A stretch of DNA of 64,000 bases from Linderina pennispora (lineage: Eukaryota > Kickxellomycota > Kickxellomycetes > Kickxellales > Kickxellaceae): the NCBI RefSeq assembly GCF_002104995.1, contig NW_024468256.1:330001-394000 (forward strand). Reading direction: 5' to 3'. The notes under the pieces are model-generated. The model had not been told where the DNA came from. It did no database searches and saw nothing but the letters and a program-made list of their open reading frames with translations. Position 1 is the first letter of the stretch; each line of letters begins with the position of its first letter. Positions 1,512 through 61,453 of the stretch are shown here, piece after piece. The position numbers and the translations under genes are program-made.

Positions 1512-1640
1512 TCAGAGCGGCGGAAAGAAGTGCTCTTTAATCAAGTGATCACGTGCAGCAAGCAGATTTGAGAACAACTCGCCACACACATTGCACTTGA
1601 ATGCCTGTGGAATTGTCGGCCGATGAATTCTGAAATCCAT
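1512..1640 (-). CDS. C2H2 zinc-finger microprotein 1 (42 aa)
   Basis: ATG at 1640, TGA at 1512-1514. The whole protein is a short N-terminus (MDFRIHRPTIPQAFK) followed by one C2H2 finger, CNVC, 12 residues, H, LIKE, H, ending FFPPL-stop. The same finger spacing and the same terminal H-F-F-P-x-L occur in six other small genes in this window, so the short frame is very unlikely to be chance. The finger should bind one zinc. With one finger and no linker, specific DNA binding alone would be weak, so protein or RNA binding, or action as a dimer, is possible. Function unknown. Confidence 0.75.
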   Translation of the reverse strand: MDFRIHRPTIPQAFKCNVCGELFSNLLAARDHLIKEHFFPPL

Positions 1641-2432
1641 AGTGATAGGGGATCTTTAAGGTTGTGCTGTGGGGGAAATGTAAAATGTATAAAAGGCAAT
1701 TTGGTGGTCCGGCGACGGAGATTGCAGACTGCCCTTTTTATGCCTATCTGTGATCGATGCCCAGCCCGTCCGCTCGGCAAGGGCCACTGGTCGGGGATAT
1801 TTGTCATCAGAAAAATATATTGGTCAGTTGCCTCCAATCGCGCCCCACTGGTCGAGTTCCCTCAAAAATAGCTTGCACCCGCCAACAATCCCAGTGAATC
1901 CCGCTTATATTGGCTCTGCGCAGGAATTGCTTACAAACCAACCCCGCACTACAATCAAGACCGACTAGATTTTGCACTATCCTCATTGAAGACACGACAA
2001 ACCAACTCCAGACACTGAACCAGGGGCTGCCTTTCGTGGGACACAGAAGCAGCGCCAAGTGGTCCGCCTCTGAGAACCTCTAGTTGTTAAATGGAGACTC
2101 TATCCCTGGTTTCCTGGGCAGATTCAGAAGGCAAATAACACCCCACCGCCTATGCAGGTAGCTCATTTGGATGCGTCATTTCTACGTGCTGCGTGCAGAT
2201 GATTGATATACAATACCTCCCAACACCTGCCAGCTGGTAGAGGGTCAGGTAACTCTGAAAGTTTAGGACTGTATCAAAATTGAATTGCACCTTTTTGCCT
2301 TTAGAAAAATTATATTGAGCTCGTTGACCGACAGTGTAGTAAGGAAGGACCAGTCGGCGCTCAACGTCCATTCTGTTCAACAGGTTGGTAGGCTGGAGAG
2401 GCATTGGTAGCATTGAGAGCAGTGTACAGGCT
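1641..2432. other. Intergenic, 0.8 kb
   Basis: Holds the promoter-like region of microgene 1 and the 3' flank of microgene 2. No other gene seen. Confidence 0.5.
1735..1744 (-). promoter_or_regulatory. TATA-like box of zinc-finger microgene 1
   Basis: GCATAAAAAGG on the minus strand, about 95 nt before the ATG at 1640. This spacing matches the other microgenes. Confidence 0.5.
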
Positions 2433-2534
2433 CTACGAGTTCTCCAGCGGGGGGAAGAAGTGTAGAGTGCGCACATGCTCAGTGGCAGCAGTATTGGAGA
2501 CGAAGCTGGTGTTACAGTAGGGGCAGGTGTCCAT
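2433..2534 (-). CDS. C2H2 zinc-finger microprotein 2 (33 aa)
   Basis: The frame is open much further upstream, but a clear TATA (2691-2698) lies inside that extension and no ATG occurs between it and the ATG at 2534, so the short form is chosen. The protein is almost only a finger: MDT, CPYC, 12 residues, H, VRTL, H, FFPPLENS. It is the smallest member of the family and shows that the finger plus the FFPPL tail is the whole functional unit. ATG context is good (GCCATGG). Function unknown. Confidence 0.75.
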   Translation of the reverse strand: MDTCPYCNTSFVSNTAATEHVRTLHFFPPLENS

Positions 2535-3613
2535 GGCTTGTAAGTGAAGCGTAGATGTCGTAGAGGTAACAGGGGTGGTATAGTTTTGGGAATTGGAAAT
2601 GTGTAGTAAGTGCGAATGGTATAGACAAGGGCTGAAAAGCGGCTCAGGAGATCTAGATGAATGCCCGTCCTGTTTACTGGGGGTCCAGGCTTTATAAACA
2701 GCACCACAGAACAAACCAGTACCCGTCAACTGTTGCTCCTTGATTTCTGCTGAAAAGAGGAAACCAGAATGACAAGGGAAATCAAACAAACCACCCAATC
2801 TGTCAAGGCTTAGGCTCCTGTGCTCTCTTGTCATTCCTTGTAAGGTAGCCAACACCCTCCCAAGACCACTTAAACGACCAGCCCATAAACCTTGTCAGTC
2901 AAATGACCAGGCCCGATTGTAGCGACAGCATGTTGCAGTAGTTAAGTGGTGTTTGGATCCAGCCCAGGTATCAACTAAAGCTACTTACATTGCCAAATTG
3001 AGAGAAAACGCGGTGCTGATATGTGTCTATCTGGAAGCCTGCACGCTCCATGCCAGTTTCCTTTGCAGAGATTCAAGTGGTGAGTTAGTGCCACTAATTA
3101 TGACAGCGCTGGGTGCTGGATATGTCAACTGCAGGCTGGATGAAATGAATTCTCTTGGCAAAATGCTTTGACAATAGAGACCCTAAATTACATTGAGCGC
3201 ATGGCAAACGATGGGCTGTGTAGACCTGACTACTTGTCAGTTTTTAGCAACTGAGCTATGGGCCAGCATCGCTCATGCTCAGGATAGGCATACAGCCATT
3301 GAGTTTACGAGTGCGGCATTTTTAGCTGTGTCTATGCGGCCTGCCCCATGGTCTGAGATTTGGGATCAGGACGCCCAGATTAGCGCCTCCCAGCATCTGC
3401 TCTATGACCTCAGCGAACGCACTTGCGTCACATGCTCCATAGTATTTTTGGACCATTAGCTGCATATATGGGCATACACGCTGCATGTGTGGGAAGCAGC
3501 AAAAGTAGGGACAGCGAGTTTTACGCAAGCGGCTAATGGCCTGCTTCCTTGTTTTCTTTCTTACCAATGAAAGCCTTGATTATTTCCATACACTATCCAT
3601 TTGACTGTTCAAT
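2535..3613. other. Intergenic, 1.1 kb, with one unexplained minus-strand frame
   Basis: Apart from the TATA at 2691, a minus-strand frame at 3322-3567 encodes a basic, Cys-rich stretch (RCPYFCCFPHMQRVCPYMQ) followed by QKYYGACDASAFAEVIEQ, but it has no ATG before the basic part. It could be the remnant of a mobile-element protein; I cannot name the family. Nothing else is evident. Confidence 0.35.
2690..2699 (-). promoter_or_regulatory. TATA box of zinc-finger microgene 2
   Basis: TTTATAAA about 155 nt upstream of the ATG at 2534, with an ATG-free leader between. It fixes the short start of microgene 2. Confidence 0.65.
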
Positions 3614-3823
3614 ATGAAATTCACTATTGTTGCTTCTGTAGCTGCTCTAGCTTTTGCCGGGCATGCTGCGGGCAAATCCGGTGTTGCTATTCGTCTAAAG
3701 GCAACTCCCCCGGAGCTGTTCAGCCCGTGCCTCAAGAACCCGTGCCCGTCTGGCAAGGGCTGTGCTGAACTTCAGCCGGCCTGCCTTGTTGGCCCGTGCT
3801 TCCCAGAGGTCAAATGTATTTAA
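3614..3823 (+). CDS. Small secreted cysteine-rich protein (69 aa)
   Basis: ATG at 3614 opens a strong signal peptide (MKFTIVASVAALAFAGHAAG). The mature part of about 49 residues has six cysteines in its C-terminal half (SPC, NPC, KGC, PAC, GPC, VKC) and ends in I-stop, with many Pro and Gly. Six even-spaced cysteines suggest three disulfides. This is the profile of fungal small secreted proteins; I do not recognise a family. The gene is convergent with RIB7, with 35 nt between the two stop codons, so their 3' UTRs must overlap. Confidence 0.75.
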   Translation: MKFTIVASVAALAFAGHAAGKSGVAIRLKATPPELFSPCLKNPCPSGKGCAELQPACLVGPCFPEVKCI

Positions 3824-3841
3824 GTTAACTGGCGTTACCCA

Positions 3842-3847
3842 AATAAA
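3842..3847 (+). terminator. Poly(A) signal AATAAA of the small secreted protein gene
   Basis: AATAAA 19 nt after the stop codon at 3823, in the short gap before the convergent RIB7 stop. Confidence 0.55.
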
Positions 3848-3858
3848 GCCACTGCCCT

Positions 3859-4614
3859 TTACTGGGCAGCAGTTGTTGCAAACATTACGATATCGCGCCC
3901 AAAGGCCGCATACTCCAGCGGCTCAATAGCAAATGAAGAATCAATGGTTTCTGCTGCAACAGCTGGTACACCACCACTTCCAACTAGCACAGGCGCAGTG
4001 GTTGTGATGAGACGGTCGGTTAGCCTGCTGGTCATGAAGAGCTGAATTATCTGAGCGCCTCCCTCGACCATCAGACTACTGATCCCAAGGTTGGAAATCT
4101 CCTTGAGCACGGCAGCCAGCATTGGGCGACCTGCTCCATCGACCTTATCAATGACAATGACACGCGCACCAGCAGCCTCCAACCTTGCTCTCATGCCAGC
4201 ATCATATACAGGTCCACAAACGATCCACGGTAGCTTCAGTCTGTGGTTCTCCTTGGGCCCGGCCAGCAGATTGGCAGTGGGTGGGAATCGCAGGTGAGTG
4301 TCCAGTACTATCGGCTGCGGCTGCTCTACCAGATGACACTCAGGGGCGGGCAGCAGTCGTGCATTAAGCCGCGGGTTATCGCACAGGACCGTGCCAATGC
4401 CAACCAGTATTCCATCGTGGATTGCTCGCAGCCGATGGGTCATGGCCATAGATTCCTTGCCGCTGAGAAGTAGCTGCCGGCCGGGGCGCGAAATTTTGCC
4501 GTCGAGGCTCTGCGCGAAGGTCAGAGTTACAGTTGGCCGATTGTCCGGCGCTGGAAGCGACTTGGCAAGGTTGCGTTGGAGAAAGTCTTTGGCAAGGGCA
4601 AATGAATCAGTCAT
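3859..4614 (-). CDS. RIB7: 2,5-diamino-6-ribosylamino-4(3H)-pyrimidinone 5'-phosphate reductase (riboflavin synthesis)
   Basis: 251 residues, usual for fungal Rib7. It reduces the ribosyl side chain of the diaminopyrimidine intermediate with NADPH, an early cytosolic step of riboflavin synthesis. The RibD C-terminal fold is clear: VTLTFAQSLDGKIS near residue 28, then THRLRAIHDGILVGIGTVL, DNPRLNAR, and the late MVEGGAQII motif (Gly-rich NADPH-binding turn). I chose ATG 4614 (MTDSFALAKDF); the frame extends upstream only with non-ATG codons. Upstream lies a 0.7-kb region shared with the divergent SHMT gene. Confidence 0.92.
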   Translation of the reverse strand: MTDSFALAKDFLQRNLAKSLPAPDNRPTVTLTFAQSLDGKISRPGRQLLLSGKESMAMTHRLRAIHDGILVGIGTVLCDNPRLNARLLPAPECHLVEQPQPIVLDTHLRFPPTANLLAGPKENHRLKLPWIVCGPVYDAGMRARLEAAGARVIVIDKVDGAGRPMLAAVLKEISNLGISSLMVEGGAQIIQLFMTSRLTDRLITTTAPVLVGSGGVPAVAAETIDSSFAIEPLEYAAFGRDIVMFATTAAQ

Positions 4615-5313
4615 CGTGGAAGGCAGGCAAGTAAGGTGGCGGACAGGGCTGGGCTCACATCTAAGCACCTCAGTGTTTTTGTACTGCTAGATGGGCCCAG
4701 AGCAGCATATGGTATGGACATGCTAGTTTCGCCCCACGCCCTTGTGTCTGATAAACGCGGAAAATGCGGTTGTTTGGTGCACCAGCCCAGCAGTCTGTTG
4801 ACTCTCGCAGTCCGCTGCGTAGAAGCAGTGCCTGGAGCTTGCAGCCTAATGAATCGGTCAGGCACGGGTATTTCTGGGACTTCGATCCGACGTCACGCAG
4901 CTCCTAAGCGCCTGATCTGTCCTAGATCACCGGCAAATGGCAGGTTGCGCGGTACTTTCAAAAGCACAGGCTGTGAGTGGGACCATGCCTTTTTAGAGAT
5001 CGTGCGGGACAGCGGGTCCAGCGGGGGATTTTCGCCCCGCTGCCTAAACACGCCGTCAGCGAAATGGGCACGGTGGCAAAGAGGCAGACTGGCAGTCACT
5101 TTCGCACCAGGAATTCACCGCGCCAATTTTTAACAAAAAAACTGACAGCGCATATTTACATCTGCTTGTGAACGAAAAAAATTCCCAAGAGGCCCACCAG
5201 CTGATAACAAAAAGGGAAGAGGGCCCGGCGCACCCACTGGCCTTGAGAAAATACCCATCTTCCCTCCACTGTACCTCGTGTTTTCAAGAGTTTTATACCT
5301 ACACAAGCAAAAA
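4615..5313. other. Divergent promoter region between RIB7 and SHMT
   Basis: About 700 bp holding both 5' regions. It is GC-rich with several open frames that lack ATG starts or family resemblance. No classical TATA box was found. Confidence 0.5.
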
Positions 5314-6816
5314 ATGATGCTCCAGACCACCCGCCGCCTTGCTTCGCAGCACACCGTGCGTGCCAGTGTGCGAGCCATGTCGAAGTTTGCCGTGTCGAGC
5401 GAGAGCGTGCTGAACCAGCCGCTGTCACAGGCCGACCCCGAGCTGTACAACATCATTGAGCTGGAGAAGGCGCGGCAGCGTGCCGGTATCTGCCTGATCC
5501 CGAGCGAGAACTTCACGTCGCGCGCAGTGATGGATGCTCTGGGCTCAGTGATGCAGAACAAGTACTCGGAGGGCTATCCGGGCGCGCGCTACTACGGTGG
5601 CAACGAGTACATCGACCAGTCCGAGTCGCTGTGCCAGAAGCGGGCGCTGGAGACGTTCCATCTGGACAGCAGCAAGTGGGGCGTCAACGTGCAGTCGCTG
5701 TCGGGAGCGCCAGCCAACCTGTACGTATACGGAGCGCTGCTGAAGCCGCACGACCGGCTGATGGGTCTGGATCTGCCGCACGGCGGCCATCTGTCGCACG
5801 GATTCCAGACGCCCACCAAGCGTGTGTCGTACTCGTCGGTGTACTTTGAGACCATGCCGTACCAGTGCAACGAGGAGACTGGCCTGATCGACTACGACGC
5901 GCTGGAGAAGAACGCCAAGCTGTTCCGTCCCAAGATCATCGTTGCTGGAGCCAGCGCCTATGCGCGCACCATCGACTATGCGCGCATGCGCAAGATCGCT
6001 GACTCTGTTGGCGCCTACCTGATGGCCGACATGGCCCATATCTCGGGTCTGGTCGCTGCTGGTGTGCTGGAGTCGCCATTCGACTATGCCGACATCGTCA
6101 CCACCACCACCCACAAGTCGCTGCGTGGTCCCCGCGGCGCCATGATCTTCTTCCGCAAGGGCGTCCGTAGTGTCAACAAGAAGGGCGTCGAGACTCTGTA
6201 CGACCTGGAGCGCCCGATCAACATGTCCGTGTTCCCTGGCCACCAGGGCGGCCCCCACAACCACACCATCTCTGCCCTGGCCGTTGCCCTCAAGCAGGCG
6301 CAGTCGCCCGAGTTCGTCCAGTACCAGAAGCAGGTGCTGTCCAACGCCCAGGCCTTCGCCAAGGGCTTTGCTGAGCGCGACTACAAGCTCGTCTCTGACG
6401 GCACCGACACCCACCTGCTGCTCGTCAACCTGATTGCCTCCAAGGGCATCGATGGCGCGCGCGTCGAGCGTGTCCTGGAGATGGCCAAGATTGCCGCCAA
6501 CAAGAACACTGTTCCGGGTGACCGCTCTGCCATGGTCCCTGGCGGTCTCCGCATGGGCACTCCGGCCATGACCACCCGTGGTCTGAAGGAGCAGGACTTT
6601 GCTCAGATCGCCGAGTATGTCGACCGGGCCGTCATCATTGCCAAGGATGTCAGCAAGGACGTGTCGTCCAAGAAGTTCGCCGACTTCAAGGCCACCCTGG
6701 GCGATGACGTCGATGCGGTTCCGGGTCTGGCAGCTCTCAAGAAGGAGGTTGTTGACTTCTCGCGCAGCTTCCCGGCTGTTGGCTTCTCGGTTGATACCAT
6801 GGTCTACAGGGACTAG
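5314..6816 (+). CDS. SHM1: Serine hydroxymethyltransferase, mitochondrial form
   Basis: 500 residues from ATG 5314 (a second ATG follows at once). It interconverts serine plus tetrahydrofolate with glycine plus 5,10-methylene-THF, using PLP. The first ~30 residues ([20 protein letters not shown]) are Arg/Ser/Thr-rich without acids, a mitochondrial presequence. Family blocks follow: [47 protein letters not shown], and the PLP lysine in [13 protein letters not shown] (K268). The C-terminal [11 protein letters not shown] segment is intact. It is highly GC-rich in third positions, as expected of an abundant enzyme. Confidence 0.97.
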
Positions 6817-7299
6817 ATAGCGGATTTAATTTTAGTTTCTAGAAATACACGTCTTTCAAAGCCTCTTTTTTGCCTTTATGAAACGGAAGCGTCGACGATA
6901 TCCTGAGGCAACTCGTGCCGCTGTTGACTCGGAGCTGAACGAGACAAGGTCGGCGCTCATTTCTTGGCATTGCGTATCTGGAAGCTTCTGTGCGCATGCA
7001 AAGGACATTTTTGCTCTTCGCTTTCCGCCGCCGTCTCCATGCTCGTATCCACAGTTGCAGGGATGAGGGGTGAAGGAGAAACTCCCCCAACTGAACCCTG
7101 TTGCGGCATTTCGTATCATCGCTGTCTGCCATTTTCCAACTCCGAACATGCTAGACAATCGGGTATAAATGACGACCACACCACCCTCGTCATCCCGTCA
7201 TCTCTGAAGGCTTCACACCAGCTCTCTTTTCCTTTTTCTTTTTCTCTTGCATTTTTGTACTACGTCTTGTCTTTTTCAAGGAACTTACTCTATTCAAGC
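6817..7299. other. Intergenic, 0.48 kb, promoter of MIR protein 1
   Basis: Contains the SHMT 3' flank and a TATA box at 7164-7170 serving the downstream gene. A CT-rich leader precedes the ATG at 7300. No other gene. Confidence 0.55.
7164..7170 (+). promoter_or_regulatory. TATA box of MIR-domain gene 1
   Basis: TATAAAT in GGGTATAAATG, 130 nt before the ATG at 7300. The leader after it is pyrimidine-rich, as is common for strongly expressed fungal genes. Confidence 0.6.
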
Positions 7300-9108: not shown

Positions 9109-9537
9109 ACGAGTTTTTGAATGATATCATTTTCTCTTCCCAGACAACCTATCGCTGTTGCACAGCACAGGATCCTCCTGCAAACGAACGGTGCTAAAAA
9201 TACCCGCCACGCCTATTTCGCCCACTGTTATTGCTGGTGCTTGTTTGTTGGCAAGCTATGACTTGCGTCCCCTGATCCTGACGCAATGGCTCCTTCCAGA
9301 ATAAGGAGCTGCACAATGGATAGTGCGCAGAACGGATGCCCCCCGCGCTCTTGTCCGGATGTGCAGGATGACTTACCTTCCAGCTTGGCGCTTTTCCTTG
9401 TGCGACAAAGAGAGTTCCTCGATTGATTGGCACGGGTAAAGCGTGGGCAGGCAACTGCATATATAAAGGGGGTCGGCCGGGCAAGGACACGCCCCGAACC
9501 CCTCAACTCCAGACAACATTCACTTTCCAACTTCATC
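9109..9537. other. Intergenic, 0.43 kb, promoter of MIR protein 2
   Basis: Holds the 3' flank of MIR gene 1 and the TATA at 9460-9467. No other gene. Confidence 0.55.
9460..9467 (+). promoter_or_regulatory. TATA box of MIR-domain gene 2
   Basis: TATATAAA followed by a G-run, 78 nt before the ATG at 9538. Confidence 0.7.
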
Positions 9538-10902: not shown

Positions 10903-11774
10903 TCATTTCTTTTTCTCCAACTGGCATCAAAGGCATCACTAAATTTTCAGACTCAGCAATCACCACCAACCCCTCCCCGATCACTGGAATGCAGCTGAAC
11001 GCCTTGGACCCGCACCAAAGGATACTGAACAATAAGCCTTGCGGCCTGCCGCTGCATTCTAGTCCAGGTGATTGGCGACATCAGGGCCGGCCCGCTTGCC
11101 ATCAGGCCGCAGGTTCACATGAAAACGGATGTGCGTGCCCTCATCTGCCGCTGACAAAAAGCCAAAAATAGACCGGGCAAGGTTTGTAATTTCTCTCTAA
11201 ACCGCTCGATGGCCCGCATCTCATGTGGGCCAGCACGCCTCCCCCAACCCCATTTGCACTGATTTCCTCATGCACGGTTAGAAAAGAATCGAGGGCGCTG
11301 GAGCTAGTGTAACATTTGTCTCTGTCCAGTGATTTCCTTGCGGCTTAATGCTTGCTGTAAGGAACAACCCGCCGCCTGGCGAACCCTCTTTGGGGGCCGG
11401 GGTGGATACGTAGGTGATCACTTGTTTTCGGTCGCTGATTTCCTGTGCTTTTTTTATGCCGCCTGTTGGGAGACAGACAAGAGCGAACGCGTAGAATTGG
11501 CAAGGCCACTGCATTCTGAGATGCGAGCTGGTTTCCTGGCCCTAGGGCAAATATAAAAGGAAAACTGTTCGCCAGCCCTCTTCAATATTTTTGTGTTCCC
11601 TTACCAACCCACTCCATCAACAAATAGTAACTCATCATCCACCTCATTAGGGCAGCGCACGCGGCGATCGAAGCACACACACGTTTCACACTGCATTCGC
11701 ATTTCAATCCATCCCTGTTGCACTTCTTCTTCTCCCCACCACTGCATCTAATTCCATCCTAATCATTTCTCCCC
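10903..11774. other. Intergenic, 0.87 kb, promoter of zinc-finger microgene 3
   Basis: The 3' flank of MIR gene 2, then the TATA at 11552 and a 215-nt CT- and CA-rich, ATG-free leader before the microgene. No other gene seen. Confidence 0.5.
11552..11559 (+). promoter_or_regulatory. TATA box of zinc-finger microgene 3
   Basis: TATAAAAG 223 nt before the ATG at 11775; the leader between contains no ATG. Confidence 0.65.
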
Positions 11775-11930
11775 ATGGCATACTACAAGACCTCCTCGAT
11801 CGGCCTCCCGACCTTCCGGTGCTTTGGTGTGCAGAGCGGATACCAGTGCACCGTGTGCGGCGCCTACTTCCCCTCTGCACATGCTGCCAGCGAACACGTC
11901 CGTGAGCTGCATTTCTTCCCCGAGCTCTGA
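11775..11930 (+). CDS. C2H2 zinc-finger microprotein 3 (51 aa)
   Basis: ATG 11775 is the first ATG after the TATA; TGA at 11928. N-terminus MAYYKTSSIGLPTFRCFGVQ, then the family finger: CTVC, 12 residues (GAYFPSAHAASE), H, VREL, H, FFPEL-stop. The N-terminal 20 residues share nothing obvious with the other members, while finger spacing and the tail are identical. The long ATG-free leader fits a real short mRNA. Function unknown; a regulatory microprotein is inferred. Confidence 0.78.
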   Translation: MAYYKTSSIGLPTFRCFGVQSGYQCTVCGAYFPSAHAASEHVRELHFFPEL

Positions 11931-17333: not shown

Positions 17334-17394
17334 AGGAGCTGCTGATCAGATCGGGGCAGCGGCTACTATAAGAGGAAAACAAACCTCAAAACTA

Positions 17395-32340: not shown

Positions 32341-32818
32341 GGTGCTGGTTTTTTGGCTTGGATTGAAATGCAAATGCAGAGTGTGTTGGAATGATGTTGT
32401 TGATGTGTTTGTTGTTAATTTAGGTGAATCTACCCCTCCATCCAGACCTTTTATATGTGGAATCACAAACTTCTGGATACTCTTCCCCTCTCCTGGATAT
32501 GCCACCTAGATATCCCTATTTTCTATCTTTAGTCTGTGCCAAGATGCAACAATGCGGGATAAAAATGGACACCATCTACCTTTGGTCTGCCCGAACCCGC
32601 TACATTACCAAACATCTATAAAGGCAATCCTTGGCTATTTATCGGAAAATCGTCCGATGACATCTCAAAAAGATGTGTGCAGAGTCTCACAAAGAAATGT
32701 CCCTCTCCTCCAAAATAGATATGCATGTGGTGGTCTTATAAATAAACGAAATCGAATTCTAGAAAATCCAATGTGCATAAATCCAATCTCCTAGTACGTC
32801 ATCCTGGCGCAAACGCGA
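32341..32818. other. Intergenic, 0.48 kb
   Basis: Promoter of the peptide precursor and 3' flank of the aldo/keto reductase, AT-rich. No other gene. Confidence 0.5.
32449..32455 (-). promoter_or_regulatory. TATA box of the peptide precursor gene
   Basis: TATAAAA on the minus strand, 109 nt upstream of ATG 32340. Confidence 0.65.
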
Positions 32819-38011: not shown

Positions 38012-39684
38012 ATGAATATTACCCGCAGCACTACTGTCATAAAGACATCACTTGGTGGTATTGGCTTCTGTGATTCTATGTTGCCCCGCCTAGAGCAATT
38101 TGTATACAGCGTCAATATCATCAAAGAGCATGTATACATGCTTGCACGATGGATATTACTCCATCAACTAGCTGATGATTATGCCTTTGACCCTGCAACA
38201 TTTGTGAAAAAGGGGGGGGGTTCGTTCTATTTATTTATTTATCTATCATAACATGAAGGCAAATCCACTTGCTGCTGCATCGGCGGCAGCAGCAGACACT
38301 GTTGCAGTACTTAACAATGAATATGCACCAGCACCCCCAGTCTATGCATACGACCCGGTCCAAGGGATCACACAACCTGTGTGGGATGTGTGGGGCCGGG
38401 TCGCAGATCTAACATCAAAGCCATTTAAGGCGCATGGTGATAGAAAATTCCACGGAATGGCGACAACAGATGGTGTAACAATATGCATTTTGTTGCAAGA
38501 TAAGATATCCAAGGCTGGTGGTGCAGTAGATGCCGATGGTGCAGGAGACGATGCTGCGGGAGGCAATGCTGCGGGAGGCAATACTATAACTGACTGTCGC
38601 TATATCCACCAGATCCCACAGCCAGAGCTGCAGAATCTGAAAGGCCGCTGTGTATTCATCGATCCAGGTCAGGGCGATTTACTGTATATGATGCACGAAA
38701 ATAGCAGCAATGGGAAAGAGGGTGAAAAAAATGCTCTACCGCTACACACGGCAGCAGCGCAATAAGGAGCTCAAGCTGCGCCACTATGACAGGATTCACT
38801 GGGCTACAAAGGATCAAGTCCCAGAAGATGCTGTCCGCAGAGCAGAGGCAGAGCTTTCCAAGCACTGCTGCCGGACCCTTAGCCCAGCAAAATTCCGTGC
38901 CTGCGTTGCTGCCCGTGCATCTGTGCGGTGTGTCCTAGCACCGTTTTATGCCAGCACGATGACAGCGCGAAGGTTACCAGAGTAACAACTCACTAAGTCA
39001 AACAAGAAGCACCAGGGGCGCTGGAAGGCCCATCCGGGTGTCGGGACCAGTCCCAAGGTGTACCCGCTTCACCGCAAGCTGCGCCTTGATTCATTCATGA
39101 ACCAGGCCCGTGCAGACCACAGGCTTGCCGCGAAACTCCGGAGCAAGTTCGGTCCAGATCCAGTGCTGGTCATGGGCAATTGGAGTGCGCCGATGGCCCG
39201 ACACCATGCACCGATTCGTGGCAAGGGATGGCGCGACAAATTCAAGCACCATGGCTTTGAAGTCTATCTGATCGACGAATTCTGGACATCGTCGATGTGC
39301 CCGTTCTGCTGCGAAAAGTCACTGCAGACATTCCGGCATGTTCCCAACCCGCGGCCCTACCAGAGATCGAAGAACCCAACTGTGAAGTGCCATGGCCTTC
39401 TCCGCTGTACAAGCGAGTCATGTAAGCAGGCCATGGCACAATACAGGCGAGCCTATTCGTCTCGGCTCTTGAACCGCGACCTCGCAGCAGTTCTAAACTT
39501 CAGACTCGTTTTCCAGTCACTCTGTGATTCAGGCAGTATTCCTGAACGGTTCTGTTGCCCTACGGCCATTGTTGCCGATGCTTCTGGCACCACCCCTGAA
39601 ACAAAGAGGCCGCGCAAGAAGCGTGCAGCAGCAGGCGATTCTGCTGCTAGCAGCAGCGAGCCAGCGCTGAAGCGCCTACGCTGA
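38012..39684 (+). pseudogene. Broken Fanzor (eukaryotic TnpB-like RNA-guided nuclease)
   Basis: Three consecutive frames make one Fanzor of ~556 residues. The N-terminal helical part (TRSTTVIKTSLGG, 38012-) shifts by one base in a nine-G run at 38212-38220. The second part has FHGMATTDGVTICILL and the RuvC-I motif CVFIDPGQGDLLY (Asp codon 38661), then shifts near 38710. The third part has YTRQQRNK, an in-frame TAA at 38983, then the Fanzor1 core HRKLRLDSFMNQARADHRLA, VLVMGNWSAP, YLIDEFWTSSMCPFCC (rearranged catalytic Glu, codon 39277), a second CHGLLRC...SC knuckle and RuvC-III NRDLAAVLNF (Asp codon 39478). A basic tail (KRPRKKR, KRLR) is a likely NLS. All three acidic residues and the zinc knuckles survive. 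The frameshifts may be sequencing error, but the TAA looks like real loss. Confidence 0.85.
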
Positions 39685-40524: not shown

Positions 40525-40537
40525 GGTTTTCTGTTTT

Positions 40538-46252: not shown

Positions 46253-46755
46253 GTCAAAGAAAATTTGTGCAGTAATTTGACAGAAAAACACCAGGTTGAA
46301 AAAAAAAACCTCCAAAGGGCAAAAAACTGACCAGCTGAAATATTCAAACTGTTTACTATAAAAGCAGTTGAGCCGCGAGCTATCTGCCAATTCCATGAAG
46401 ACGATGGTTCAACACTGACACCATGCTATTCATTATTCACAGCTACATAAAGGACGCTATGCAGCAAAGTACCGGCAGCAGCTGCATCGTTACTGTCGGG
46501 TACTCAAAGACAGGCCGATTATGGTGCTAACGCGTAGCTGGTGTTTGAGCTTCAACATTGCCCTGCATGCTTAATGGAATCTAATCCAATCTCGATATGT
46601 GGACACGGTGAGTAGATTTGGGTGCATTTTGTTATGACCTTGCATGCGTAATCCAGTGTAGATGTGGTGCCGTCACTGCAGCGGCACATCGTTCTTTCTT
46701 TCCATTGCTTTCACACCACGCAAATAGTATTTCGCACGATATTTATCCACTTATC
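46253..46755. other. Divergent promoter region, 0.5 kb
   Basis: Lies between the F-box-like gene (minus) and the first metallo-beta-lactamase-fold gene (plus). A TATA-like ACTATAAAAGC sits at ~46355. No gene. Confidence 0.5.
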
Positions 46756-47832
46756 ATGGCGCAGCTCCAAGGACAAGAGCTTAGGCAGCAGCTTGCAAAG
46801 GACAAGAGCCACCATCTCCCGAACGGACGGTTCAAGAACCCCTGGAACTCGTTCCAGCCAGCTTCATGGCTGTCGTACGTGTCGTACCTTCTGTTCAGAA
46901 GGAGCACCAAGCTTGTCACGCAGTCCATCGAAGAGGGCCGTGCGCCCGAAGTGCTCGTTCTCGATACAGATGCCTTGAGCAACCCGCCCAAAGACAAGAT
47001 TCAGTTTACCTGGCTGGGCCAGTCTTCGCTGTTTGTGCAGATTGACGGCGCCAACATTTTGTTCGACCCGGCTCTCTCTGAGCGCTGCTCGCCGGTGCAG
47101 TGGATAGGGCCGAAGCGTATCACCAAGGCTCCATGCGCAGTTGCTGAACTGCCACGAATCGACGCTGTTGTGCTTTCGCACGACCATGTTGATCATCTGG
47201 ACTGGAACACGCTTACCGATGTGGTTGCAAAGTACCCAGAGATCCAGATTCTTGCGCCGCTTGGCAACGGTCCGATTTTGAAGAGTATCGGGTTCAAAAA
47301 CATCCGCCTAGCCGACTGGTGGGACGAGCTTGAGATAGAGCTTGGTGCTGAAAACAAGTCGCTCACCTTTGCCTGCACGCCTGCACAGCACTCATCTGGC
47401 CGAGGCTTTTTCGACAAGGACGCGTCGCTGTGGGCCTCTTGGGTCGTCCAAGGGTCTGGCAGGTTTTTCTTCTCTGGCGATTCTGGATACTCTGCATCCA
47501 ACAACAATCCGACGGGTGCCAAGAACCCAGCATTCGAGCAAATTGGCAAGGTCTATGGCCCTATTGACTTGGCAGCAATTGCGATTGGTATCTACAGCCC
47601 ACCAGAGATTCTAGACTCGTTGAACATGCAGCCTGAGCAGTCGGTAAAGGTGCACGAGGAAATCCGGTCGCGCCGTTCTATTGGCGTGCACTGGGGCACT
47701 CTGGCGGTCACCGAGGAGCCAGTGGACGAGCCGCCGCAGAGGCTGGCAGCCGAGGTACTGGCGCGTGGGCATCAGGCCGAGGACTTTGGTGTCATCAGGA
47801 TTGGAGAGACTGTTCAGCAAGCGTGGAACTAA
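46756..47832 (+). CDS. NAPE-PLD-like metallo-beta-lactamase-fold hydrolase, paralogue 1 (358 aa)
   Basis: ATG 46756 (MAQLQGQELRQQL). Zinc-hydrolase fold: LGQSSLFVQIDGANILFDP, then SERCSPVQWIGPKR, the metal motif LSHDHVDHLDW (H142, H144, D146, H147), CTPAQHSSGRG (third His), FFFSGDSGYS (bridging Asp) and GVHWGT (last His). The order and the WIGPKR...HLDW text are those of N-acyl-phosphatidylethanolamine phospholipase D relatives. Substrate in fungi is not settled; a lipid phosphodiester is likely. No signal peptide. A close tandem paralogue follows 0.4 kb downstream in the same orientation. Confidence 0.88.
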   Translation: MAQLQGQELRQQLAKDKSHHLPNGRFKNPWNSFQPASWLSYVSYLLFRRSTKLVTQSIEEGRAPEVLVLDTDALSNPPKDKIQFTWLGQSSLFVQIDGANILFDPALSERCSPVQWIGPKRITKAPCAVAELPRIDAVVLSHDHVDHLDWNTLTDVVAKYPEIQILAPLGNGPILKSIGFKNIRLADWWDELEIELGAENKSLTFACTPAQHSSGRGFFDKDASLWASWVVQGSGRFFFSGDSGYSASNNNPTGAKNPAFEQIGKVYGPIDLAAIAIGIYSPPEILDSLNMQPEQSVKVHEEIRSRRSIGVHWGTLAVTEEPVDEPPQRLAAEVLARGHQAEDFGVIRIGETVQQAWN

Positions 47833-48234
47833 GTGCTAACGCGGATTCATCGGGTGATGGCTTGGACACACCATCCCTATGCCTGGCTGGCTATGAGCGC
47901 TCAACACATCCGGGCGGCTTCCCTTGCTCCTGCCTCTTCCGTACTGCTTACGTATTCATATTACAATGCCTTCTGTTTTTTACAAGAACACTGCCTTCCG
48001 CATACATGCCAGAAGCCGGTGATCACCGTCGGAGCCAACACCCAGTGTTTATATGGCACAAACATTGGGTGAGAATCACCACCAAGATCATCTTGGCTCT
48101 CGCTTTTTCTGCCAAGACCAGTCAATTGCTGGCCCTGCCTCCCCTCTCCCGCAACACCGCTTAAAAACTAGTGCCTTTGTTCTTGGTGATTTCCTCTCTA
48201 CCTCTCCATTCTTGTACGTTTTTGGTAGCTACAT
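47833..48234. other. Intergenic, 0.4 kb, between the tandem hydrolases
   Basis: Spacer with a CT-rich leader before ATG 48235. No gene. Confidence 0.5.
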
Positions 48235-49431
48235 ATGTTTTTTTGGCGGACCCTTTCACGCCAACAACGCAGTAAAGTTGCCAGCATTCCTAAGCCTCGC
48301 GCCACAGCATACTCTACCGCACAGCTCGCAACCACACCCGTACAGCATATGCCAGACCAGCAGCAGACCCGCGAAACTCTACGGCAGCGGCTCTCGGCAT
48401 CAAAGACGCACCACAACAACGGGCGGTTCAGAAACCCCTGGGAGTCGTTCGAGATGCCGACAGCAAAGATGCTGCTGAAGCACTTTTTCTTTAGCAGCGA
48501 TACCAAGCCCGTGAAGCAGTCAATTGCTGAGGGCCGTGCGCCCGAGGTTGTGCCGCTGGACATGCAAGCCTTGGAGAACCCGCCCAACGGGAGGCTGCAG
48601 TTTACGTGGCTGGGCCACTCGTCGTTGTTTTTGCAGGCTGACGGCGCCAATATCCTGCTGGATCCGGTTTTGTCGGAGCGCTGCTCGCCGGTGCAGTGGA
48701 TTGGACCAAAGCGGTACACTAGAGCACCATGCAAGATTGCCGAGCTTCCACGAATCGACGCCGTCGTGCTTTCGCATAATCACTACGACCATCTGGACTG
48801 GAACACGCTTACAGATGTTGTGAGGCAGTATCCGGATGTGCAGGTGTTTGCGCCGCTCGGCAATCAGCCAATTCTAACGTCCATTGGATTCAGGCATATC
48901 ACCACCATGGACTGGTGGGACGAGCTCGAGGTGACGCTCAACAACAGCACGTTCAAGCTGGCGTGCACCCCGGCGCAGCACGCTACAAACCGCGGGCTGC
49001 TTGACCGGTTCGCCACGCTATGGGCCAGCTGGGTCATCGTGGCTCCGTCGGGCGGCAAGTTCTTCTTTTCCGGCGACACGTCGTACTCGGCACTGGTCGG
49101 TAACCCGACGGGTGCTTACTGCCCGGCGTTTGAGCAGATTGGACAGGTGTATGGTCCGATAGACCTGTCAGCAGTTGCGATTGGCGCATATGGCCCGGAG
49201 AAGGTGTTTTCAGGCGTGCATGTGTCGCCGGAGCAGGCGGTCAAAATCCACGAGGCAATCCAGTCGCGCCGCTCCATCGGAGTCCATTGGGGGACGTTCG
49301 TTCTGACCGACGAACCCGTAGACGAGCCACCACACAGGCTTGACGCAGAGATGCTGGCTCGCGGACATGCGAGCAGCGAGTTCACTGTGATAAAAATTGG
49401 CCAGACAATCGATCAAGGTATCCAGAACTAG
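48235..49431 (+). CDS. NAPE-PLD-like metallo-beta-lactamase-fold hydrolase, paralogue 2, likely mitochondrial (398 aa)
   Basis: Tandem duplicate of the previous gene with all metal ligands: LSHNHYDHLDW (H181, H183, D185, H186), CTPAQHATNRG, FFFSGDTSYS, GVHWGT. It differs by a ~45-residue N-terminal extension, MFFWRTLSRQQRSKVASIPK then PRATAYSTAQL, rich in Arg/Ser/Thr without acids, which is a mitochondrial presequence. The pair therefore seems to have split into a non-mitochondrial and a mitochondrial form. Family and targeting are clear; substrate is inferred to be an N-acyl phospholipid or similar. Confidence 0.88.
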   Translation: MFFWRTLSRQQRSKVASIPKPRATAYSTAQLATTPVQHMPDQQQTRETLRQRLSASKTHHNNGRFRNPWESFEMPTAKMLLKHFFFSSDTKPVKQSIAEGRAPEVVPLDMQALENPPNGRLQFTWLGHSSLFLQADGANILLDPVLSERCSPVQWIGPKRYTRAPCKIAELPRIDAVVLSHNHYDHLDWNTLTDVVRQYPDVQVFAPLGNQPILTSIGFRHITTMDWWDELEVTLNNSTFKLACTPAQHATNRGLLDRFATLWASWVIVAPSGGKFFFSGDTSYSALVGNPTGAYCPAFEQIGQVYGPIDLSAVAIGAYGPEKVFSGVHVSPEQAVKIHEAIQSRRSIGVHWGTFVLTDEPVDEPPHRLDAEMLARGHASSEFTVIKIGQTIDQGIQN

Positions 49432-55424: not shown

Positions 55425-55647
55425 TTTCATCAAAACACACTGCAAGCATATCGTCCCTTCTCTTTCCCTAGTAACACCTTCCATTCTTAGTTCCTTCCAT
55501 TCTTTTTGCTTAACACCTCATAAATATCTTTTGTGTTTCTTGGCATATCTGACGATAGGGCGTGCTGAGGTTTGGGTGGTAGCAGCCATGGTTCCAGGTA
55601 GTAGAGCCTTCAGGCGACCCAGGAAAAGGACAGGGGGCAGCTCCACA

Positions 55648-56603
55648 CTACTCAGTCATGGCCAGCGCAGCGCTCGGCGCCAGCCCCAGCTCCGCCAGCG
55701 TCTTGGTCTGGTGCTTCTCGCCAAACTCCTTGCGCGGGAACGTCATTGCCAGCTTGAAGTGCTTTACACCCGTCTTCCTGCTTCACGTAATCGACCACAT
55801 CCGCCAGCGTCTGCGAGGACTCGAAAACATGCGTAATGTGGCCAATGTCTCCGAGCCCCTTCGACATCGGCCTAATCTGCAGCCTTGCCTGGCTGCCAGC
55901 TGCAACCTTCGGCACGCCCGCCTGCAGCATTGATGGCTTCTGCTGCTGCTGCTGCTTGGCCGCATCCTGCGCAGAGTCCCGCCGCCTCCTCGCCTCGCGC
56001 TCCTTGCGGTCGCTCTCAATCTGCTCCTTGACCCTCTGGCGCGCCAGCTTGTCCAGCTCCTTCTCCTGCCGCTGCTTTGCAATTGCCTTCAGCTGCTCCT
56101 GCGTCTGCAGCTTCTCCCGGATATCCTGCTCTTCCTGGCCAGCCTTCCGTCTGATCATCTCGTTCCGCCGCTGCTCCTCCTTGTCCTTGTCCGCCTGCGC
56201 CTTGCGCTTTGCCGCAATCTTATCCTGGATCTCGGCAAGCCTCGCCGCCTTCTCCTCCTCGGTCAGCGGCTTCACTGCCTCCGTTGACTCGGAAAAATCG
56301 CTGTGGCCTTGATTTCGACGCGTGGTAGGACGCCTTGTCATGCGACGAAAACTGCTTGCCGCACTCGTTGCACACGAGTGACTGCGCAGGCGCCGAAGCA
56401 GCCGGGGCTTCTTCGGTGTCCGTGGAATCGACAGTCTGTGCTGGTGCCTCTTCAATGGGGTCATCGATGCCAGCGTCGTTCTGATGGGAGTCCAGCCAGT
56501 CTAGCGCTGCCTGCAAGCCCTTGCCTTGCGTAGCCTTCAGCGCCTTGTCGATGCGTACGGGCGGGAAGCCAAATTCAATTAGCGTGTCTTTGTCGGACGC
56601 CAT
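55648..56603 (-). CDS. UBA-UBX domain protein (UBXN1/SAKS1-like), two apparent frameshifts
   Basis: About 317 residues from ATG 56603. UBA domain at ~1-42 ([31 protein letters not shown]), a C2H2-like finger at ~79-101 ([23 protein letters not shown]), a long charged coiled coil (~110-215), and a C-terminal UBX domain ([53 protein letters not shown]). UBX binds the AAA ATPase Cdc48/p97 and UBA binds ubiquitin, so the protein is a Cdc48 adaptor. One extra base near 56309 and one near 55770 break the frame. The F-P-R-type loop of UBX is present. Tail-to-tail with chitin synthase. Confidence 0.88.
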
Positions 56604-56727
56604 GGTAAAAGAAGAGCGTTTACAGTTATTTCTCTTTTAAAATGAATAGTACAGGGGAGTTAAAGGGAAAAGACCTGCAGAAGCGCGCTCTAGGCTTCGA
56701 CTCAAGAACGCCTAAATGGACCAGGCT

Positions 56728-56979
56728 CTAGTCTGTTTGACGAGAGTAAAGCATGACGTAGTGTCTTGATCTCATCCGGTGATCCTGCGAATTGGCAAAT
56801 CCCCCAAATGACCAGCATATGCCACACCGCTCAGCACATGTCGCCATGTTATGAGCTAGTGCCAAGACACATGCACATGTGGCGGTCTTCCTGATTTGCC
56901 ACATATTAAGCGCGCCAATCATGCTTTGCAAATATCGATGCTCTTCCATGCCAGGAAAAGTGAACATGAAAACTGCCAT
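56728..56979 (-). CDS. Possible diverged zinc-finger microgene (83 aa)
   Basis: ATG 56979. The C-terminal part reads RCGICWSFGGFANSQDHRMRS then RHYVML: a CxxC knuckle and a last His at exactly the family spacing (17 residues after the second Cys), followed by an aromatic. The first His is one position off and the FFP tail is HYVML, with a 7-residue extension. No TATA was seen upstream. It may be a distant member, a decaying copy, or chance. Confidence 0.3.
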   Translation of the reverse strand: MAVFMFTFPGMEEHRYLQSMIGALNMWQIRKTATCACVLALAHNMATCAERCGICWSFGGFANSQDHRMRSRHYVMLYSRQTD

Positions 56980-57394
56980 CGATACTATTATCTAATGCGC
57001 ATCTGGCCGCAGCACCAAAGAAGGGGTGGGAACGAAGATGAAAAAGTATGAGAAGGATGTGCTGCGCTTTCATAATTATCATGCGCAAATGCGAAGAGTC
57101 CTTTGCACTAATCATTGACGCGCTCGCCAGCTGCCAAGAGGGCACAATGAAAATAGGCCATCAAGGATACCCGCAGCATTAACCAGAAAGGATATTGACA
57201 AATAGATGCCTTGTTTTCTTTTAATTAGAACGTATGGCCAAAAGGAAATGCCGAGCCCAGCTGCATTTCATAGGCTTGGGCCATTTCCAACTCAGGGAAC
57301 CTCAGCGAATCCTCGTGTTCTTGGCCCAAAGCCTCACGTTTCAAATCACGCTCCCCTCGCACGCACCCCATCTGCAGCCAGTAGTTCATGGCTG

Positions 57395-57403
57395 TTATAA
57401 ATA
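57395..57403 (+). promoter_or_regulatory. TATA box of zinc-finger microgene 4
   Basis: TTATAAATA 116-124 nt before ATG 57519. Confidence 0.65.
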
Positions 57404-57518
57404 GGATGCTGGAAAGCGACTCACCATCCTTGTCTTTTTTTTCGACTCTACAGTGACTCCACTTTTTTTATATTCATTCTTGTATTTTTATGTCTTGTCT
57501 ACAGCCTGATACCCTGAA

Positions 57519-57656
57519 ATGCACATTCACACCACGCCTGCCTGTCGCCTCCAGGACAAACTCGTCTGCTATCTGTGTGGACACGTTTTCAAAGATGTAC
57601 CAGCAGTTACCAACCATCTGAGAGAGTGGCACTTCTTCCCGCCCCTAGAAGACTAG
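57519..57656 (+). CDS. C2H2 zinc-finger microprotein 4 (45 aa)
   Basis: ATG 57519, TAG 57654. MHIHTTPACRLQDKLV, then CYLC, 12 residues (GHVFKDVPAVTN), H, LREW, H, FFPPLED-stop. The finger module matches the family exactly. An earlier ATG at 57490 opens a 42-codon frame that overlaps out of frame and stops inside the finger. It may be a translational brake on this gene, or mark a one-base error that would otherwise give the protein a longer N-terminus (MSCLQPDTLKCTFTP resembles the CTF motif of members 6 and 7). Confidence 0.75.
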   Translation: MHIHTTPACRLQDKLVCYLCGHVFKDVPAVTNHLREWHFFPPLED

Positions 57657-58665
57657 GGGGTCATGGAATTGCCTGTCGAGGCGCGAATCCGCAGTGCCGT
57701 ATTTCTTATCCTTTTCAGATTCGAACATGGTCTACGCGCTTGCAGGTTATTCCTTGATCCTTTTTTCTTCAAGCCTGACGCCTTTTGTGCTGGGCCCGAT
57801 TCTAGATGTCCAAAGTTTTTAAATAGATATCCTTTTTGCTGTACTCACAACACAAGGGATTCGCCATGTGTGCAGGTTTACGATTGTTTTTTTGGGCTGG
57901 CCAAAGGAGGTGCGGATTCCGCAGAAATGTAGAGAGGAAAAGCGGCTCAATCCTCTGAACTTCCCCGCGTATTTCTACGTGTTGTGCTTGGCGTGTTTAT
58001 CTAAGAAAGCAGGGACTACCTATCGATACCTCGCCTCCTTGCACAGCACTGCATCGAAATCAACGCACTAACCGACAAAGTTCATGATTTCTGAGTAAAC
58101 ATCGAGAATTTTACCATCGAGCTGGCGTGTTTCCCGGTATATCTAGCTTGATTTCCTCTATCAGGCAGTGGGCTTGTGGTGATTCTTTTCCCATCCTTCA
58201 GTGAAAACATCCGCATGCATTGAGGAGCCTGTCTGGGGCGGGGGGGGGGCTATTTTTGGACATTATGCATCGATTTGGACCACGTCGCTGCCGGCTGATA
58301 CTTATCCGCTGTGGGCAGGCTGAACCATGCCGATCCAACACTCATGGTGATGTTTGATTTGCGTATCTTGATTTCCGACCCATTTTTAGCATGCGGGTCT
58401 TGGCACCACCTTCTGGCCACGCCATGGCGGAAAGCCGCAAAAAAAAATCAGGCTGCATGGAGCTGATGTCAGTAGTCGAATCTACTGCGCAAAAGCGAGC
58501 TCGGGCACAGACCTGCACAGACCAGGTCTGATGAGCTTGTGTGAAGTCAGCAATAAGCTTCTGCTAAATAAATACACCAGGCATGGGCGGTTACTAGGCT
58601 AATGGGCACAGCTCACCAGTAGCTCATATACTCTCCTTCTTCGGGCTTCCGTTAATAGCTTTGAG
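57657..58665. other. Intergenic, 1.0 kb
   Basis: No gene seen. A G-run of about 10 at ~58239. TATA-like TAAATAAATA at 58565-58574 for microgene 5. Confidence 0.45.
58565..58574 (+). promoter_or_regulatory. TATA-like box of zinc-finger microgene 5
   Basis: TAAATAAATA about 95 nt before ATG 58666; weaker match than in the other members. Confidence 0.4.
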
Positions 58666-58839
58666 ATGTCTCTGCAAACATGCTTGGCAGAATACCCAGT
58701 GCACTCTACAGCACACAGTAGGTATCAGTTCTTTGGGGCCCACGGCGTCTGGCACTGCAAACTGTGCAATGCATGCTGTGCTACACAGCAAGACCTGGTT
58801 AACCACATACATCTTGTTCATTTTTACCCTGAACTGTAA
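58666..58839 (+). CDS. C2H2 zinc-finger microprotein 5 (57 aa)
   Basis: ATG 58666, TAA 58837. N-terminus MSLQTCLAEYPVHSTAHSRY, then CKLC, 12 residues (NACCATQQDLVN), H, IHLV, H, FYPEL-stop. The most diverged clear member: Tyr replaces the second Phe, and two extra Cys follow the knuckle. It still keeps exact spacing and the terminal P-E-L. Confidence 0.7.
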   Translation: MSLQTCLAEYPVHSTAHSRYQFFGAHGVWHCKLCNACCATQQDLVNHIHLVHFYPEL

Positions 58840-60041
58840 AACGTACAACAGGTATCCCTTGGCGCAGAAAACGGTGAGTACCTACCACAGACCTAGGTCA
58901 GCAATGCGAATGGGCGCCGAATAGCAGTTCAAGATGCACTCTCCTCCATCAGCACGCCATGCAGTTCGTTGGTGACTACAGGTAATAGTCACGGGAAACA
59001 TGCACCATCACCATCCATCCACACGATCACAAGCAGCACATAAAGTGCTGTTAAAGGTATGCAGGGGAGCACTCCACGCACAGTTTTTAGAGGCGACTAC
59101 CCCAGGACCAAGATTGTGTGGTGCTATCACTCCAATGTGGATTTTTCTATCTCCTTTCATCTATCAGTATATAACAATAGATAAAGTGCAGTGACTGTCG
59201 CATCAATAAGGCTTGGAGGTGTAATTTAATGAGTCGCACATATGGTGCTTAAAATGACGTGCAGGGCAGTGCCCACCCAAACCACATACCGGCTATGGTG
59301 TAGCAGCTAGAAAAGAAAGGAAAAGCACGATTATGAAACTAAAACATAGAGGCTGAAGTGATGTGCTCTCATTTTGTTTGTGCTGCGGAAATTGAAAAAA
59401 GCAGGGCAGGGATTTGCGCAGGAAAGGAATTGCGCAGCCATCAATAATTGTTCTTTGATAGTGCATTTTTCTTTGCTATGGCCCTTTACAGCTAGTTAGT
59501 TAGCCATGACTTTCATCCCCACCATGTCAACGCCGATATTGCAGTCGGCACAGAGTTATGCTATCCTACAGTGCTCTTTCGTCGCTTGCGCCTGTTTGAT
59601 GGTACTGGTGTGCCATCAATGTGAGCCGTCGCTATGCGGGTGTCTACATATCCTATATGTGGGTATCTGCCTCGGCTATATCTTTTCTTGGAAGGTCTCT
59701 GCTCTGAATGCATACTTGCCAAGCTCACTGGATGTTCCACGGATTGCCATCATGGCGAGAAAAGGCCCATGAGACGTAAATCAAACAGGGACATTTATTC
59801 GTTTTCTTTTTAGAAAGCGTACAGCTGCGAATTACCGCAACCAACGCGGATAAGGGATGTAGTAATCAATCTTGTTGCAGGCAGCTGTGTGCTGCGCAGC
59901 CACTGCAAGGACTGCATGATCGCAGGTATAAATTCCATCGTCTGAATCATTCCTTCGCAGTGATATACTCTACACAACAAACCTCATAATTTCTTTTACA
60001 GCAAGTATTCTCAATTCCAGCACATAATCCCAATTTCAGCC
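58840..60041. other. Intergenic, 1.2 kb
   Basis: A frame near 59506-59772 contains LVCHQCEPSLCGCLHILYV, which could be a degraded finger but does not match the family spacing. TATA at 59927 for microgene 6. Nothing else recognised. Confidence 0.4.
59927..59934 (+). promoter_or_regulatory. TATA box of zinc-finger microgene 6
   Basis: TATAAATT 115 nt before ATG 60042, with an ATG-free leader. Confidence 0.65.
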
Positions 60042-60221
60042 ATGTCGCGCTTCTCGTCAACCTGCACGTTCATCAAGTCTTCGCCAATGTCGTCAGAGCT
60101 TTTCGTACCTCGGCTAAATGCATCCAACAGCTACTGCTGCAATATCTGTGGAGTCGTTCTCGGGTCAGTGGAGGAGGCAGACAACCATGTCAAGCTGAAC
60201 CATTTCTTCCCTGAGCTCTAA
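60042..60221 (+). CDS. C2H2 zinc-finger microprotein 6 (59 aa)
   Basis: ATG 60042, TAA 60219. N-terminus MSRFSSTCTFIKSSPMSSEL, Ser-rich, then CNIC, 12 residues (GVVLGSVEEADN), H, VKLN, H, FFPEL-stop. It shares the TCTF motif near its start and HVK(L/I)NHFFPEL at its end with microprotein 7, so these two are the most recent duplicates, about 1.1 kb apart in the same orientation. Confidence 0.78.
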   Translation: MSRFSSTCTFIKSSPMSSELFVPRLNASNSYCCNICGVVLGSVEEADNHVKLNHFFPEL

Positions 60222-61315
60222 TGGCCGGTGCCCGAAACGAAAAAGTGTAAAATCTTCCAATTCCTTTCCCCATGTATACATTAAATCTACTTTCATCTAT
60301 CACAGTGATAGAGCTGCACTGCTCATCATCACATTACGGATAAGTGTATCGGAGCGTGAGGGTTTGTGCTTGCGCAGCAAGACCAGCCTACTATGAATCG
60401 TTTCTCCGCAGCCACGCCGCATGTGCATAGGCTACAAAAGTGCATCGTTTGCGCGCTCGCGGTGATTTGCTCCATTGCCAAGGGATGTATTGTCTCAGAT
60501 AGATCGAGAGGCATCATAATTGAGAGATGCAATGCTGGAATAGTTCTGCTTGGACTGATATCTACGGAGAAAACAAGCTGCCCAGAAGCGATATTTCTAA
60601 GCATCTCTGATACCGGTGACTTCGCCCAAAAGATAGGCATGTGCGAGCGCAGCCACAACTTGATATCTCATGCTCCAGCTATCCCAATCCCAGTGCGAAG
60701 AAAAGGGATGAGTGAGCGTGCCAGGACACATGGGAACAAGTACTTGCTTGATGTTTTACTTGACCCTGCAGTTCCGCATCTGCCCCTCTTGATTTCTCAG
60801 TCATCTTATGCTCATCCCCGCAACTCTTGATTTCTTGGGCTTGCTCTCCAATGAAATTATTCGCAGCGCCCCGCTTGCCCATTGTTCATCGCTCTAGCCT
60901 GCATCTATTCTGGGAACCGGCTTGGCAGTTGGGTTGTCTCCATCTCAGTTTCAGGTGCTGCAGGACCAAACTCAATGTGGTCTGTTTATTTTTGGAATGC
61001 GACTGATCGGGCCGTGTGCAGCGAAATGGCAATGGTTACTCGCCTTTACTTCCAAGGAGAAAGCTGGCTATGGCTGTAGCCATCAAACTTGCTTGATTGC
61101 TGACTGCAACGACAGCTGAGACGCTAACCTGTTTGGCGTCATTATCCGCATTCTAAAGGCTGCTAACCTTTTTGCAGCGGTCGAGTACTGTCTATTAATA
61201 GAACTGGGATTTTTGTATATAAGTTGCAGTGCCAGTTCCACAACATATTCAGATACCGCAACCTCCACTCATTCATACCATATCATCGCATCTGCACCAC
61301 CACACTCACGACACC
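60222..61315. other. Intergenic, 1.1 kb, with a possible finger relic
   Basis: An ATG at 60393 opens MNRFSAATPHVHRLQKCIVC, similar at the start to microprotein 6 (M-x-R-F-S) with a CxxC knuckle, but both His positions and the tail are lost. A decayed tandem copy is possible. TATA for microgene 7 at 61216. No other gene. Confidence 0.35.
61216..61223 (+). promoter_or_regulatory. TATA box of zinc-finger microgene 7
   Basis: TATATAAG 100 nt before ATG 61316. Confidence 0.65.
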
Positions 61316-61453
61316 ATGAACTCTACCTGTACATTCTCATTCAAGCTGCATCACACCTCTGGTTACCGTTGCCGCATATGCGGGGTGACCCTTGCTACCA
61401 TCCAAGATGCTGACGACCATGTCAAGATCAACCACTTCTTCCCAGAACTCTAA
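61316..61453 (+). CDS. C2H2 zinc-finger microprotein 7 (45 aa)
   Basis: ATG 61316 is the first ATG after the TATA; TAA 61451. MNSTCTFSFKLHHTSGYR, then CRIC, 12 residues (GVTLATIQDADD), H, VKIN, H, FFPEL-stop. Closest to microprotein 6. AATAAA at 61543 may be its poly(A) signal. The gene converges on NDUFS2, whose stop is 140 nt away. Confidence 0.78.
   Translation: MNSTCTFSFKLHHTSGYRCRICGVTLATIQDADDHVKINHFFPEL

Follow-up and report, generated by a model that had tools for sequence, protein, structure and literature searches.

The window analysed here is a 64,000-nucleotide (nt) stretch of the genome of the fungus Linderina pennispora, comprising bases 330001-394000 of the 910,674-base contig C201 (the whole genome amounts to 26.2 Mb in 222 contigs). 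Within it lie seven very small open reading frames (ORFs), each of which runs from an ATG to a stop codon and ends in the pattern of a single C2H2 zinc finger followed by a short tail. Two are encoded on the minus strand, namely member 1 (1512..1640, 42 residues, ending HFFPPL) and member 2 (2433..2534, 33 residues, ending HFFPPLENS). The plus strand carries member 3 (11775..11930, 51 residues, ending HFFPEL), member 4 (57519..57656, 45 residues, ending HFFPPLED), member 5 (58666..58839, 57 residues, ending HFYPEL), member 6 (60042..60221, 59 residues, ending HFFPEL) and member 7 (61316..61453, 45 residues, ending HFFPEL). Reading the ORFs confirmed the positions given in the first-pass annotation. 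Member 5 is divergent, with C rather than F at finger position 8. Member 6 corresponds to entry P0001 of the protein database, and is itself the best match of member 7 within the genome.

All seven ORFs match C-x2-C-x12-H-x4-H-F-[FY]-P-[PE]-L with zero to three trailing residues, the pattern by which the group had originally been recognised. Searching the six frames of the 64 kilobases (kb) for the finger part alone, C-x2-C-x12-H-x4-H, returned seven matches, all of which carry the tail and all of which are the family. When the window was simulated 60 times with an order-2 Markov model, the finger by itself arose 0.17 times per window and at most once, and the finger with its tail never occurred. 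Searched as a DNA pattern, the tail was matched eight times against 0.02 expected; seven of these matches are the family and one, at 32551, is unrelated. The simulations and the tail counts thus indicate that the motif is not a product of chance.

Relatives, conservation and selection

The host genome contains at least 12 family loci, of which nine lie on one 98 kb stretch of C201 and at least five are additional to the seven window genes; the searches were run with single family proteins as queries, and the counts are lower bounds. Three of the further loci were read individually: C201:396136 on the minus strand (45 residues, ending HLFDPL), C201:428945 (ending HFFPDLDDL) and C68:23157 (ending HLFAPLDEFM). 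A further pair lies on C179, at 1145340 on the plus and 1162532 on the minus strand, 17 kb apart in opposite orientation and with equal scores. The copy of this pair that was read has C-x4-C in place of C-x2-C and ends HFYPDISEF; the other was recognised solely by its identical score. Near-identical copies of four loci of the C201 cluster are found on C12 and C63. These look like the other allele and are left out of the locus count.

A second array of tiny single-finger genes was seen at C146:1492809-1494450 (L061:4809-6450). Its three ORFs, of 46, 53 and 70 residues, start about 700 nt apart, have unrelated tails and all recur on C125, at 96, 88 and 80% protein identity. It may be that this genome makes wider use of tiny single-finger genes.

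The further copies that the proposal of a family called for do exist in related genomes. A search of a database of 5.8 billion proteins, which depends on exact words and on annotation and admits only proteins 0.55-1.75 times the length of the query, yielded 12 annotated relatives besides P0001 (52-68 residues, E-values 3e-14 to 4e-10). The query for this search included three members from the host's own genome together with P0002 and P0003, so that these two were already rows of it; with the window genes alone as query, P0002 (E 4.2e-10) and P0003 (E 1.6e-3) were returned besides the window-encoded P0001. The relatives come from Coemansia species, Martensiomyces pterosporus and Dipsacomyces acuminosporus. 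They are annotated as hypothetical proteins, three of the 12 being marked partial, and the UniRef name of P0007 starts with 'C2H2-type domain-containing'. On the strength of these searches, the family has so far been seen only in Kickxellales. Of the window genes themselves, the database returned member 6 alone, which is in line with the expectation that gene callers miss most copies, one in seven being a weak count from a word-limited search.

Nine of the 12 relatives group with the member at C201:428945. All ten proteins of this group start with MC and have G-x-FRLY-x-[YF] directly before the finger. The earlier description of the N-termini as unrelated holds broadly among the window paralogues and fails elsewhere, where these ten members have a common N-terminal block, MC...G-x-FRLY. 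The sole well-supported fork (98/94) joins P0012 of Martensiomyces to the C68 member. By sequence, P0013 of Coemansia sp. RSA 1286 is a probable orthologue of member 3 (E 2.6e-11), and the partial P0003 of C. biformis may tentatively be paired with member 4 (E 2.3e-4). Orthologues of members 1, 2, 5, 6 and 7 were not seen in this word- and annotation-dependent search, which is no evidence of their absence.

Conservation was assessed in an alignment of 22 members, made up of ten of the host's own loci and the 12 database proteins, the C179 copy being left out. The ligand pattern C-x2-C-x12-H-x4-H is present in all 22, and in all 22 the tail follows the last zinc ligand without a gap. Fifteen of the 22 have the strict tail HF[FY]P[PE]L; relaxed to H-[FL]-[FY]-[PAD]-x-L, with zero to four residues after it, the pattern covers the full set. 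Across the alignment, invariance is limited to the final Leu and the four ligands. The claim of an invariant tail consequently has to be given up: HLFAPL, HLFDPL, HFFPDL and HFFPAL all occur, and the C179 copy, with HFYPDI, has Ile where the others have the final Leu. On this evidence, 'conserved with subfamily variants' is the right description.

Selection at the protein level is most evident from the codons. In the seven invariant columns of the seven window genes, pairwise codon differences number 0, 0 and 74 at positions 1, 2 and 3, respectively. The purifying selection that a real family should display at its invariant residues is thus visible as differences confined to third positions. 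No dN/dS ratio (non-synonymous to synonymous substitution rates) is quoted because synonymous distances between the paralogues are mostly saturated. The near-identical contigs offer weaker support. Members 1, 2 and 3 each have a C12 copy with no changes, in 129, 102 and 156 nt respectively (387 nt combined), and the ORF at C201:428945 shows one silent change over 168 nt. The four ORFs (555 nt) therefore hold one difference, against a mean of 13.6 for stretches of the same lengths placed at random in the same loci, and one or fewer was reached by 0.37% of 20000 placements. This two-copy test is weaker than its number suggests, because members 1 and 2 lie in overlapping loci, which limits the comparison, and because the 600 nt upstream of member 3 are likewise unchanged between copies, so that its own zero differences say little. 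Taken together, the codon patterns support the view that the ORFs are a real gene family under protein-level selection.

Promoter-like boxes were also found, though at fewer loci than first claimed. A TATA or TATA-like box had been reported about 95-225 nt upstream of each window gene. In the interval -225..-95, a TATAWA box is present for five of the seven: member 2 (2691..2696, minus strand, at -162), member 3 (11552..11557, plus, -223), member 4 (57396..57401, plus, -123), member 6 (59927..59932, plus, -115) and member 7 (61216..61221, plus, -100). In this interval member 1 has just a plain TATA, and member 5 neither TATA nor TATAWA. Overall, seven of the ten family loci analysed carry TATAWA there, against a GC-matched background of 9.7%; none of the three genes of the C146 array does.

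Proposed function of the finger and its tail

AlphaFold models of member 3 (model m517a325dc2ff; mean predicted local distance difference test score, pLDDT, 69.1) and of P0005 (mean pLDDT 62.7) each predict a small beta-beta-alpha finger built of one helix and of short strands or bridges; over the finger the block pLDDT is 66-87. Member 3 has an extra short strand before the finger (residues 15-17). In both models the first F past the last His marks the end of the helix; what remains of the tail is drawn as coil, and confidence falls towards its final residues. Comparison with solved structures returned generic small fingers only. We infer that the predicted finger binds zinc.

C2H2 fingers that read DNA make their base contacts, usually including Lys or Arg, from helix positions -1, 2, 3 and 6. 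Among the 22 aligned members, Lys or Arg is found at none of these positions in any protein, so that the family does not look like a DNA-reading C2H2 finger. The helix is instead acidic: 19 of the 22 have an acidic residue at +6 and 13 have one at +3, and the net charge of finger plus tail ranges from 0 to -5 in all ten of the host's own loci. The missing DNA-reading residues, the acidity and the conserved tail together make a protein-binding role the most likely one.

We therefore favour an explanation, to which we would give roughly an even chance, in which the genes encode stand-alone, zinc-stapled C2H2 microproteins that bind protein rather than DNA and whose finger and tail act as a docking unit. 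The ORFs would be unspliced, expressed genes. The zinc-held beta-beta-alpha finger, with an acidic surface free of DNA-reading residues, would serve as a rigid staple from which the hydrophobic tail, H-[FL]-[FY]-[PAD]-x-L, is offered to a partner common to the family. Finger and tail may form one protein-docking surface, and the tail probably docks on the partner protein, in a manner modelled on FAAP20, where the C-terminal tail folds onto both its finger and its partner. Each paralogue would be tuned by its diverged N-terminus and helix surface, and the TATA-type promoters would turn each copy on under its own conditions. Taken further, the cluster might issue differently regulated, N-terminally diversified docking units to a single hub, the short C-terminal motif being a new recruitment signal of Kickxellales; this extension we regard as credible but less likely than not. 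The first-pass annotation had proposed the tail as a docking motif for a shared partner. That is plausible, with the tail kept in three genera and forming coil after the helix in the models; as worded, it is not supported, since the tail is not invariant and no partner was found.

Several observations weigh against this explanation. Besides the variation of the tail, up to the loss of the final Leu in the C179 copy, both AlphaFold models are of low confidence, and at the C179 locus, the eleventh examined for promoter boxes, the 340 nt that precede the match contain TATA but not TATAWA. In addition, most C2H2 fingers have Leu at finger position 14, where 16 of the 22 aligned members have Ala and one has Leu, as would be expected were the tail filling the core instead. 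This last point underlies the strongest rival, which we consider a credible if clearly less probable account: the tail would be structural, F-F/Y-P-x-L folding back to complete the finger core in place of the Leu at position 14, and function would lie elsewhere on the surface. The family would then be defined by a variant finger fold. That the tail directly follows the last zinc ligand in every aligned member agrees with such an arrangement. The coil after the first F in both models, less confident towards its end, speaks against it, albeit weakly since both models are poor.

Other readings survive less well. Plant SUPERMAN-type proteins combine one C2H2 finger of the QALGGH type, which binds DNA, with a short C-terminal motif that recruits a partner, the leucine-rich EAR tail. 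By analogy, the family could be one of miniature transcription factors that bind DNA through their single finger and carry an effector motif at the C-terminus. The architecture is indeed alike, and the structure comparison gave the SUPERMAN finger as one of its weak matches. We nevertheless think it unlikely, since all 22 members lack a basic residue at the four base-contacting positions, the helix is acidic, there is no second finger, and neither QALGGH (0/22 aligned rows) nor the EAR tail is present.

The proteins could also be ubiquitin-binding zinc fingers (UBZ) whose tail extends the ubiquitin interface. The C-terminal finger of FAAP20 is reported to need a tail with a conserved terminal Trp for ubiquitin binding (PMC4267625), and weak matches to PF18439 zf_UBZ were obtained for two of the 22 members (best E 0.049). 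UBZ membership was rejected because the D-A-L motif, D-x3-A-x2-hydrophobic, is found in none of the 22, or in three if Glu is allowed, and this option appears quite improbable. Finally, long open frames upstream of the ATG (153 residues for member 2, 251 for C201:428945 and 254 for the C68 member) and the possibility of splicing could suggest that the ORFs are last exons or decayed ends of larger genes, which is very improbable, as the annotated orthologues are just 52-68 residues long (three of the 12 partial), the MC start is common to the entire G-x-FRLY group, TATA boxes lie close upstream of most copies, the long open frames that were read hold one finger each, and the frame upstream of member 2 differs between the two copies where the ORF itself is identical, which supports the ATG as start.

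These tiny proteins, conserved and clustered, belong to a family that annotation has largely overlooked, and to a fungal order whose molecular biology has been little studied. Should the tail prove to be a docking motif, naming its hub would give a function to the whole family; should it complete the core, one of the smallest stable protein folds would have gained a new variant.

Other features of the window

Pieces in two frames at 38253-39684 (plus strand) resemble a Fanzor/TnpB-type transposon protein, with a weak match to a Cas12f1-like TNB domain (E 0.00089; score 19.8 bits, cut-off 26.3) and, by eye, the look of a C-x2-C...C zinc ribbon. The neighbouring ORFs at 46618-47832 and 48235-49431 both have the metallo-beta-lactamase fold (Lactamase_B_2) and are probably a tandem duplicate. 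A tandem repeat with units of 15 and 138 nt occupies 1-326, at the window edge.

Comparison with known systems

The statement that no named family has this form has so far stood up. All seven window proteins fall short of the Pfam cut-offs (for C2H2 PF00096 and its kin, the best score was 23.8 bits where 25.2 are required), and no description of the family was found in the literature searched. Ligands and fold order are as in the Pfam C2H2 families PF00096 and PF13894, the window proteins scoring below the cut-offs. A sub-threshold match to Actin_micro, a putative actin-like family, recurs in 17 of the 22 aligned members (positions 206-237 in those with the range shown) and is probably a resemblance of the finger alone. 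The C2H2 fold, microproteins and C-terminal docking motifs are all known parts; as far as our searches go, their combination as a clustered, lineage-restricted family is undescribed.

MicroProteins such as the plant MIF mini zinc fingers are likewise very small, single-domain proteins thought to act via protein interaction. They are kin to the larger proteins with which they interfere, whereas in the family no larger relative was seen: our own-genome searches, in which long open frames were not resolved into exons, gave no longer protein with the tail. Another C2H2 finger, that of EEA1, has been solved in a complex with Rab5 (PDB 3mjh). It has the same ligand spacing as the family and serves by analogy, no kinship being claimed, as a second precedent for a protein-binding single finger.

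The best parallel we found for docking by finger and tail is FAAP20. It too has one zinc finger at its extreme C-terminus, and the short tail behind this finger contains a conserved hydrophobic residue (PMC4267625). The two differ in detail: FAAP20 has CCHC ligands, D-A-L on the helix and a terminal Trp, the family C2H2 ligands and F-F/Y-P-x-L directly after the last His, and the parallel is drawn from layout, not from sequence. According to the same study, loss of the terminal Trp abolishes binding, and D-x3-A-x2-hydrophobic is needed on the helix (PMC4267625). The FAAP20 tail is described there as disordered when free and as folding, on binding, onto both finger and partner (PMC4267625), which is the behaviour that we envisage, by analogy, for the tails of the family.

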